Assembly: GCA_020441995.1 (NCBI GenBank)
Contig: JAGRLC010000050.1
Coordinates: forward strand, 1-41,659
Length of the DNA stretch: 41,659 bases
Direction: 5' to 3'
Source of the DNA: Rhodobiaceae bacterium
GTDB lineage: Bacteria; Pseudomonadota; Alphaproteobacteria; Rhizobiales; Tepidamorphaceae
The notes under the pieces are model-generated. The model saw nothing but the letters and a program-made list of their open reading frames with translations, did no database searches and was not told the DNA's origin. A program made the translations under genes and the position numbers. This document shows, piece after piece, positions 607 through 5,721 of the stretch (the stretch's first letter is position 1; each line of letters starts with the position of its first letter).

Positions 607-631
607 TGAAACGATCCTGTGAATCGTTTCA
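607..631. repeat. Perfect 9-bp inverted repeat between the HNH gene and uvrB
   Basis: Arms TGAAACGAT (607-615) and ATCGTTTCA (623-631) are perfect complements around a 7-base loop. It lies between the 3' end of the HNH gene and the 5' end of uvrB, both on the minus strand. There is no T-tract on either side, so an operator upstream of uvrB is as likely as a transcription terminator. Confidence 0.5.
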
Positions 632-704: not shown

Positions 705-1616
705 TTATTGTTTGAACACGTTCGTGCGATGCCAGCCCAGATATTCGGGATGAGGCCGCAACCGGCTATCTGCCGGTACATTTGCTTTCATATCGTGATT
801 AAGCAAATGAGAGACATCATGATTCAAATGGCGGGAGCGTAAGATTGTAAAATCGTCTTCAATTGATAGGAGGCCGCGGTCGAACATCCAATGTACTGTG
901 CCGGATAGCGCGATCCCATTACGGACCCAATCATTGCCGCCTTTCTCAACGGGGCGAATATGCGCCGCTTCGACCTCTGGACGACCTTGACCATTGATTA
1001 ATCGAAGCCCAGTGAAAGCGCATGTTCGGTCATATGCGATGCGCACATGCTGCTTGAATTTTGCGTCGCGCCATTTTCGTTTCGTCAATTGCTCAATGAT
1101 TGGTCGTTCAAATGGTTGGCCAATCAGGCCAGGTTGAGGTGTGTCGCCAAATCCGCTGCTTTGGGTCACCTCATCATCGGAATTTACGATTTCATCGTAT
1201 CGATCTGGCCATTCGTCGGGTTGCGACAAGCCTGCTTGTACAATTGCTGCAAACTCGGCCTCTTCTAGTTTTCGAACAGCCTGAACTTTGTAGCCATTGT
1301 TAATCGTACCATCAGCTTGGACGAGGCGCCGTTCGAAGCCGCCATTTTCCTTGTACTCAACGGATCTATCGAAATCGATATAGCCGTTCAAATGCGCGTA
1401 ATAATGCTTCGCTGTGGATGGGTCAGGTGAAATATCGGCGACCTTTGCAATACCTGTGTAGAAGCGACCATCCTTATTTTCCACTGGTCCGTAATAGACC
1501 ATCCAATCGCCAACAACGGGTTCCACACGGGACAAATACTGGCGAGGGAAATGGTACCGTTCTCCGGTTACATCGTCGTATCGACTATCCGGCTTGTGAT
1601 AGAAAACGGCTTTCAT
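705..1616 (-). CDS. HNH endonuclease with an N-terminal domain of unknown type
   Basis: This 303-residue protein has a C-terminal HNH nuclease domain at about residues 190-255. Visible features are CAFTG (199-203), His219 in AAHIRPVEKGGND, Asn233 and His242 followed by FDRG, the usual order of HNH_2-type nucleases. Residues 1-125 form a separate beta-rich region with VVGDWMVYYGP and RFYTGIAKVADI, reminiscent of PUA/EVE-like modified-base readers of modification-dependent restriction enzymes; that resemblance is my inference. No methyltransferase gene is adjacent. The gene is clearly richer in A+T than its neighbours and has no obvious ribosome binding site, which fits horizontal acquisition. 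A 6-bp dyad touches the start codon. It could act in defence against modified DNA, or be a solitary homing-type nuclease. Confidence 0.82.
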   Translation of the reverse strand: MKAVFYHKPDSRYDDVTGERYHFPRQYLSRVEPVVGDWMVYYGPVENKDGRFYTGIAKVADISPDPSTAKHYYAHLNGYIDFDRSVEYKENGGFERRLVQADGTINNGYKVQAVRKLEEAEFAAIVQAGLSQPDEWPDRYDEIVNSDDEVTQSSGFGDTPQPGLIGQPFERPIIEQLTKRKWRDAKFKQHVRIAYDRTCAFTGLRLINGQGRPEVEAAHIRPVEKGGNDWVRNGIALSGTVHWMFDRGLLSIEDDFTILRSRHLNHDVSHLLNHDMKANVPADSRLRPHPEYLGWHRTNVFKQ

Positions 1617-4131: not shown

Positions 4132-4992
4132 TCAGCCGCCGATGAAGCGGGCGATTTCCTGGCCGTTGCGGTCGTAGAGATAGAGGTGGCGGTTATCGCG
4201 GGCGAAGTAGCGCGATGCCGCGAAGGCGTTGAACAGGACGCGCTCGTAGGTGTCGGTTGCGCCGCCGCAGCGCATCTTCGTGGAAATGACATTCGAGAAG
4301 CGCACGGCGGCACGGCTGGTCTGTTCGACGCTTGTGTCGAAGCTGTTGCAGCCGCCATTGCCGGAGACCTTGCCGCGCCGGTTGATGTTCATGCGGGTTG
4401 CGCGCGAGGCGTTGCCGCCGAGTTCCTCAAGGCGTCCGGCATTGTTGCGCAGAACGCTGAGGCGCCAGTTGCCTGCAAGCTCGAAGCCGTTGTTGCCGCG
4501 CTGGGGCTGCTGCGGCGCGCGGGCGTTGTCCGAGACAATGACGCGCACGAGACGGAAGGTTTCCCACCCCGCCGCACGATCGGAGACGGCGGCCAGCAAC
4601 GAACCATTGCCGACGCCGGCGCGGACATATTTGCCATTCTGCGCCGATCGCAGCGTGAAGGTGCCGCCATTGGTGCGCATGTGGAAGATTTCCCATGAGC
4701 CGACACGGGCGGAAGCCACAGCGAGGAACGCGCCCTGTCCGACGCCCGCGCGCAGATATTTGCCGGATTTCCGATCGCGGAAGGCGACCTGGCTGGACTG
4801 AACGCGCACCATATCGAACCGCAGTGCGGTCTTGGCGGAAGGCTGGTTGGCGGCAAGGTAGCCGCCGGCGGAGGCGACATATTTGCCGCTCTGCACGGAC
4901 TGGAGCGTGTAATATTGAGCCGCATTGGCCGCCGTCGAAGCGGCGAGCGCCGATATGACGACGGCCATGGTTGCGATGAGTTTCCTCAACAT
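4132..4992 (-). CDS. Secreted fascin-like beta-trefoil and META domain fusion protein
   Basis: The 286-residue protein starts at the ATG preceded by GAGGAAGAAG. A signal peptide ends near residue 25 (ANAAQ). Residues 26-152 hold three related repeats with SGKYVASAGG, SGKYLRAGVG and NGKYVRAGVG, the pattern of a fascin/actin-crosslinking-like beta-trefoil, a fold that often binds carbohydrate or protein. After a Gln/Pro linker (158-168), residues 171-284 form a META domain (HslJ-like) with LAGNWRLS, GNGGCNSFD and STKMRCGG, ending GQEIARF. The two cysteines may pair. It is 34 bases downstream of another META gene on the same strand, so they are probably co-transcribed. META proteins are linked to envelope stress and drug tolerance in other bacteria; a specific role here is unknown. 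Confidence 0.82.
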   Translation of the reverse strand: MLRKLIATMAVVISALAASTAANAAQYYTLQSVQSGKYVASAGGYLAANQPSAKTALRFDMVRVQSSQVAFRDRKSGKYLRAGVGQGAFLAVASARVGSWEIFHMRTNGGTFTLRSAQNGKYVRAGVGNGSLLAAVSDRAAGWETFRLVRVIVSDNARAPQQPQRGNNGFELAGNWRLSVLRNNAGRLEELGGNASRATRMNINRRGKVSGNGGCNSFDTSVEQTSRAAVRFSNVISTKMRCGGATDTYERVLFNAFAASRYFARDNRHLYLYDRNGQEIARFIGG

Positions 4993-5026
4993 GGTTCTTC
5001 TTCCTCGTGTTGCCTCGTTGGAAGGG

Positions 5027-5554
5027 TCAGGCCCGCGCGAAGCGGGCGATGGCGTTGCCGCGCGCATCGAGCAGGATCAGTTCGTTGCCGTCCTGGGTGT
5101 AGCCGGCGGCATGCTTGAAGGCCGCGAACAGGCCGCGTTCGGCATCCCATACAGGCCCGAAGCAGGCCTTGCGGGTTGCCAGTACGCCGGTGAAGGCGAT
5201 GTCGTCGCCATCAAGCGTAAGGCTTGTTCCGAAGCGGTTGCAGCCGACGGTTCCCGACAGCTTGCCGTCTTCGCCGATCACGATCTGCGAACGCGCGACC
5301 AACGCGTCGTCGAGCCCGGAAAGCTCGCCGCCGGGGCCGGCCAGATGCGTCAATTGCCAAGTGCCGCCAAGCGGCATGCTATCTGAAGTGCTCGTCACGG
5401 CAGGCCCTTTCTGCTGTTGCGCGTATGCGGCGGGCAGGAGCTGGGAAGCACCATGGGCGGTCATTGCGCCGGTTACGGCATAAGGCGCCATCGCGAAGGC
5501 CGAGCCGAGGCTGGCGCAGCCGAGAACGAGGGCGGTGAACAGTCGTCTTCCCAT
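5027..5554 (-). CDS. Secreted META-domain protein
   Basis: This is a 175-residue secreted protein. The start at 5554 is chosen because GTGGAG lies 8 bases upstream and a signal peptide (MGRRLFTALVLGC, cleavage probably near residue 32 or at AYA 43-45) begins there; an upstream start at 5587 would put 11 extra residues before the signal. The META domain covers about 61-172: LGGTWQLTHL, GTVGCNRFG, TRKACFG, and the closing DARGNAIARF, which closely parallels the end of the downstream trefoil-META protein. It is the first gene of a two-gene unit. The paired cysteines (105, 131) match those of its neighbour, suggesting a conserved disulphide. Confidence 0.82.
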   Translation of the reverse strand: MGRRLFTALVLGCASLGSAFAMAPYAVTGAMTAHGASQLLPAAYAQQQKGPAVTSTSDSMPLGGTWQLTHLAGPGGELSGLDDALVARSQIVIGEDGKLSGTVGCNRFGTSLTLDGDDIAFTGVLATRKACFGPVWDAERGLFAAFKHAAGYTQDGNELILLDARGNAIARFARA

Positions 5555-5721
5555 GTGTTTGTCTCCACGCTTTGCCGCAAGGGGCAATTGAAACCGTCCG
5601 GCGGATAGCCGGGATTAGCGTGAAGAAAACATTTCCGGTCTGAAACGCCCCTGAAGCCGGCGTTCATTTGGGGTTCAGGGAAGAGGCCGGGCGTTGCGGC
5701 TTCTGGCTGGCCGTGCGCCGG

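Follow-up and report, generated by a model that had tools for sequence, protein, structure and literature searches.

A candidate EVE-HNH endonuclease gene upstream of uvrB in a Rhodobiaceae bacterium

The locus and its base composition

The window (the whole stretch of DNA that was analysed, 41,659 nucleotides from a Rhodobiaceae bacterium) carries close to one end a gene that we designate as encoding an EVE-HNH endonuclease, 160 bp upstream of the uvrB start and on the same strand (Table 1). The earlier sequence-only reading had placed this open reading frame correctly. It is a minus-strand frame of 303 codons beginning with ATG. It had also described the gene as richer in AT than its neighbours, which holds both for overall composition (GC 0.491 against 0.620 in the rest of the window) and for third codon positions (GC3 0.477 against 0.693-0.856 in ten nearby coding stretches). 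The gene is thus compositionally foreign to its surroundings, and the same trend is seen in the family, where GC lies more than 5 points below that of the flanks in 53 of 79 loci. The inverted repeat located between the gene and uvrB was found as a single copy in a search of the bacterium's own genome. Elsewhere in the window, two neighbouring, overlapping minus-strand frames (4132-5067 and 5027-5587) each contain a META domain, the former with additional weaker lectin-like matches.

Table 1. Features of the locus and of related loci that include a methylase gene (L numbers denote loci of relatives)
Feature	Position	Strand	Basis or remark
EVE-HNH endonuclease gene, 303 aa plus stop	705-1616	-	ATG start; ORF call, alignment, model
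Predicted EVE (PUA-superfamily) domain, residues 1-130	1227-1616	-	Predicted structure, fold search, conservation
Linker, residues 131-178	1083-1226	-	Mostly low model confidence
HNH nuclease domain, residues 179-303	708-1082	-	Pfam, profile and fold searches
HNH_2 motif, residues 199-253	858-1022	-	Pfam, alignment
Catalytic-motif codons H219, N233, H242	960-962, 918-920, 891-893	-	Within HNH_2
uvrB, N-terminal part, cut by contig end	2-544	-	Downstream, same strand as EVE-HNH gene
Inverted repeat GAAACGAT-N7-ATCGTTTC	608-630	.	Between EVE-HNH gene and uvrB
EVE-HNH relative plus C5 methylase, some plus Vsr	L043:2636-4739; L151:4748-7097; L152:4890-7165; L153:4036-6438

Nuclease half and predicted reader half

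The C-terminal half of the protein matches the Pfam family HNH_2 with an E-value of 2.5e-10, and the same family is present in all 63 members of an alignment in which the window protein is joined by 62 of the 80 loci kept from our genome search. His219, Asn233 and His242, which the sequence-only reading had picked out as the residues of an HNH nuclease, are invariant across these 63 sequences; they correspond to the catalytic His, the structural Asn and the metal-binding residue (His or Asp) that characterise the HNH domain of VcaM4I-type enzymes. The HNH half is also what carries the matches of the family profile to proteins of known structure, VcaM4I (1.7e-9) and TagI (1.9e-7).

To the N-terminal half the sequence-only reading had ascribed a beta-rich domain, and such a domain is seen in the AlphaFold2 model computed from the 63-row alignment (mean pLDDT 89.1, pTM 0.83), where residues 1-130 reach pLDDT values of 93-98 in ten-residue blocks. 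A Foldseek search with the model ranked VcaM4I first (3.9e-10), followed by TagI and then by EVE proteins. Superposition of residues 1-130 using VIA-align gave a Z-score of 12.9 with the EVE protein PH1033 (rmsd 2.7 over 123 residues), and scores of 12.4, 11.1 and 10.3 with MJECL36, PSPTO5229 and human THYN1 in complex with 5mC DNA, respectively, while ASCH (9.9) and YTH domains (at most 9.5) scored below the EVE structures. The fold comparison that had been proposed for this region thus led to an EVE fold, and the N-terminus did not match a non-nucleic-acid family, an outcome that would have spoken against the proposal. Searches by sequence gave fainter signals. Pfam returned no match in the N-terminal half of the window protein, and a weak EVE match in four of the 63 members (best E-value 0.036). 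Alignment of the family profile by hhalign to 13 canonical EVE proteins of relatives yielded a probability of 5% and an E-value of 0.0076, with plausible segments that are co-linear, though weak, and an EVE entry appeared at an E-value of 0.6 in the profile search against the PDB. Because sequence support is thin, the assignment of the N-terminal half to the EVE domains of the PUA superfamily rests on the predicted fold.

Aromatic side chains are frequent among the conserved N-terminal residues (Y13, D15, Y21, F23, P24, Y27, Y41, Y53, F82, E95, G108 and R115). VcaM4I is reported to read 5mC and 5hmC by means of E15, P24, W82 and Y130 together with the wedge residue Q128 (PMC7897488). In a comparison by residue number, D15, P24 and F82 are conserved in our family and counterparts of the stacking residue Y130 and of Q128 were not identified. 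The agreement of D15 and P24 with the VcaM4I pocket in number is suggestive only. The layout put forward in the sequence-only reading, a reader of modified bases of the PUA, EVE or SRA kind joined to an HNH nuclease, is supported by the predicted EVE fold, the HNH domain and the lack of a methylase partner in the window.

Distribution, transfer and neighbouring genes

Across 84,980 species genomes, relatives are encoded in 256 candidate stretches, of which 80 were kept. A further 124 plasmid records match, 42 of them over at least 80% of the query, and the plasmid-borne relatives are annotated merely as 'HNH endonuclease' or 'restriction endonuclease'; a pattern-based scan of viral contigs gave no relative. 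Within a sample of 397 genomes of the order, 96 match and 59 contain a full-length copy (rows counted by hand). The nuclease is patchy, being matched in 18 of 101 relatives. Trees of the nuclease and of UvrB were built from 19 of the 30 uvrB-linked loci (eight were missed by the UvrB-core motif; short ones and the window were omitted). The nuclease of Hoeflea halophila joins that of Ahrensia (100/99), whereas its UvrB joins that of Hoeflea marina (100/99). Monophyly of the Hoeflea nucleases, a group named after the trees had been seen, is rejected with a p-AU of 2.9e-8. The EVE-HNH gene hence moves horizontally, and yet in both Hoeflea species its copy is found ahead of uvrB.

This position recurs throughout the window's clade, which we define by an identity of about 53% or more to the window protein. 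Of the 36 informative loci, 29 have the gene ahead of uvrB on the same strand, with no called gene in between in 22 of them and intervening genes in the other seven. It lies elsewhere in seven loci (L010, L011, L013, L027, L031, L032 and L034), and in four more (L005, L015, L026 and L035) the contig ends too early. Outside the clade, a Henriciella locus (L060) has uvrB 1.6 kb downstream of the nuclease gene. The recurrence of the position in the clade despite gene transfer is, to the extent that our literature search returned nothing on this site, new, which is no proof of absence in print. Among relatives of the bacterium, uvrB is near-universal (58 of 61 matched), and none of the 20 whose site was fetched has a copy of the nuclease there. 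In one of these, G001 of the same family, a C5 methylase with a helix-turn-helix, a Vsr and an EcoRII-C nuclease lie directly upstream of uvrB (L131:6139-9006; PF00145 8e-80, Vsr 3.4e-33, EcoRII-C 5.3e-61), and in another, G026, a divergent C5 methylase gene (4e-60) sits beside uvrB. That the site is a place where restriction genes settle is a thin conclusion, drawn from two of 20 relatives. As a separate observation, an inverted repeat CTGNCA-N-TGNCAG, often CTGACACC..TGTCAG, was found upstream of uvrB in 16 of the 26 nuclease-bearing loci and in eight of 20 relatives that lack the nuclease, and is absent from the window. Its distance from the UvrB core is about 500-930 bp in most cases and 254 bp in L004, always on the upstream side (further examples are L007, L025, L033, L133, L134 and L144), and in Stappia and Labrenzia loci the stop codon of the nuclease just precedes it.

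The sequence-only reading had stated that the gene has no methyltransferase partner. This agrees with the window, where frames of at least 180 codons contain no methylase motif of the DPPY, NPPY, SPPY or PCQ type, and with the bacterium's own genome, where no C5 methylase (PF00145) was found in an assembly that is 75% complete and may be missing one. The fetched flanks of the window's clade are likewise free of C5 methylases. Homologues always adjoining a methyltransferase, which would have counted against that reading, were not found, though C5 methylases do neighbour the nuclease gene in a minority of divergent relatives. Such a gene is close by in three of the 80 kept loci (L040, L042 and L043) and near further full-length relatives (L090/L155, L091/L153, and L151 and L152, both of which were chosen because a methylase lay near), and in L092/L154 it is 5.6 kb from the nuclease gene. 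Five of the methylase-linked loci also contain a Vsr, and several hold additional restriction-like genes, as judged by reading their frames. In a quick tree of 96 rows, from which fragments and duplicate loci were left out, a branch with support 99 parts the methylase-linked from the uvrB-linked rows, and the 62-row group that includes the window protein contains no methylase-linked row. None of the conserved N-terminal residues separates methylase-linked from solitary members.

Genomes with a full-length relative encode a C5 methylase about as often as others, namely in 27 of 59 cases against 171 of the remaining 338, as counted by eye with two 397-genome samples taken as identical; in the window's clade the figure is two of nine genomes with a full-length copy, too few to tell. 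Genome-wide conflict with C5 methylases, used as a test for 5mC, thus gave no sign of avoidance by carriers; this similar frequency and the methylase-linked relatives argue against a general cutter of 5mC DNA. Since a minority of relatives adjoin C5 methylases, dependence on 5mC is not established, and the candidate targets are 5hmC, 5mC within a particular context, or a different base. In one genome (G257:C1:250714-251641, L169) a nuclease of the same clade appears broken into two pieces, one of them with a stop. This genome carries four C5-methylase matches, and the case, the only one of its kind, would be consistent with nuclease and methylase being in conflict.

Neighbouring genes were taken from a simple ORF caller, some of whose calls may be wrong, and 205 of 298 frames were scanned, near-copies, short frames and uvrB being mostly omitted. 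Among 105 neighbours, most of them from the more distant relatives, the PADLOC matches listed include mads, AriA, a type III nuclease, BrxB, GajB, PtuA and DRT, with one or two members each. For 100 neighbours of nearer relatives, all 25 families listed are C5-methylase models with three members each, which, judging by the frames scanned, are the methylases of L040, L042 and L043.

Interpretation and relation to known enzymes

Taken together, the protein is probably a type IV-like restriction endonuclease of the EVE-HNH kind, solitary, independent of NTPs and dependent on base modification. What argues for this is the predicted EVE fold, an HNH domain of the TagI and VcaM4I type, the domain order of VcaM4I and the invariant catalytic residues, along with the lack of a methylase in the window and of any C5-methylase hit in the genome, the atypical composition, the patchy distribution, the conflict between the trees, the defence genes in the neighbourhood of distant relatives and the restriction system that G001 has in this position. 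We count against it the weak EVE signal in the sequences, the methylase-linked relatives, the similar frequency of C5 methylases in carriers and other genomes, and the incompleteness of the bacterium's own assembly. In such an enzyme, the EVE domain would scan duplex DNA and flip out a base that carries a modification; modified cytosines, 5hmC or 5mC for example, are the most likely targets. The base would enter an aromatic pocket that may include, among other conserved residues, D15, F23-P24 and F82. Its capture would license cutting close by through the HNH domains attached to the reader, which probably act as a dimer and in which H219 is the putative general base. Phages or foreign DNA containing such bases would thereby be restricted. 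The gene would serve defence and, while moving horizontally, is found in the window's clade mostly at a variable site just upstream of uvrB.

The relatives beside C5 methylases, five of them with a Vsr as well, raise the alternative that the protein is the restriction half of a past or present type II system, in which the EVE-like domain would recognise a specific sequence or an unmodified target while the C5 methylase protects the host; solitary members would then have shed the methylase or be rendered harmless by other means. The shared N-terminal residues of methylase-linked and solitary members are in line with this, but the flanks of the window's clade are without a methylase, an active nuclease of type II would kill the bacterium itself, in whose genome no C5 methylase was found, several of the methylase loci hold other restriction-like genes, and two of them had been selected for the methylase; we regard this alternative as unlikely. 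Quite unlikely in our estimation is a family that straddles the boundary between types II and IV, in which some relatives would be restriction-modification nucleases working with a C5 methylase and Vsr, their EVE domain reading a sequence or an unmodified base, and the solitary uvrB-site clade would be a branch that turned to modification-dependent restriction, unless the change ran the other way, while the conserved N-terminal residues stayed the same.

The position of the gene, for its part, could point to a nuclease of DNA repair or surveillance that acts with UvrB and whose reader sees a damaged or deaminated base, as the linkage in the clade and in the Henriciella locus would suggest. Against this, uvrB is near-universal and the nuclease patchy, other genes intervene in seven loci and seven copies lie elsewhere, G001 has a restriction system at the same spot, and the composition is foreign. 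Given the transfer, the patchiness and the intervening genes, we rate UvrB as a functional partner low, and this reading is very unlikely. The NCBIfam model PT-DNA_restrict (NF045808), finally, matches the protein with an E-value of 1.2e-23, as a phosphorothioate-dependent enzyme of the SBD-HNH kind would, but the match is confined to residues 178-302, its 83.7 bits are less than half of the curated cut-off of 180, and the N-terminal half has the predicted EVE fold instead, so that such an enzyme is extremely improbable.

The type IV-like reading would give a fold and a probable function to a family whose members on plasmids bear only general endonuclease annotations, and would add a distant branch to the EVE readers. 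The uvrB-upstream site is a place to seek further defence genes in the order, and whether EVE domains can work within classical restriction-modification systems could be tested concretely on the methylase-linked relatives.

The sequence-only reading had considered the combination of reader and HNH nuclease as possibly a new pairing. This does not stand, as the EVE-HNH architecture is already in print, crystallised as VcaM4I (PMC7897488) and covered in a survey of EVE domains (PMC7641849). VcaM4I (PDB 6yex), the best structural match of the window protein, is similarly solitary, has the EVE domain followed by the HNH domain and is of almost the same length (309 aa against 303 aa); it differs in its third HNH residue, D250 in place of H242, and its EVE half has no sequence match to ours. 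Canonical EVE proteins (UPF0310/PH1033, PSPTO5229, THYN1) share the fold of residues 1-130 with Z-scores of 10-13 and the weak co-linear profile match but, unlike the window protein, are stand-alone and highly conserved; the bacterium's own genome also encodes one of them. TagI (PDB 6ghs), whose HNH domain is similar (Z 14.2 across 112 residues by VIA-align), has an SRA domain as its reader in place of EVE. PcaRCII is reported to be a solitary methylation-dependent nuclease that conflicts with a resident methylase and whose HNH half has been likened to those of VcaM4I and TagI, while its N-terminus was likened to a helical bundle rather than to an EVE domain (PMC8989522). The window protein is thus an enzyme of a known kind on a distinct branch, and what is unusual about this branch is its recurrent site upstream of uvrB despite transfer, together with its methylase-linked relatives.
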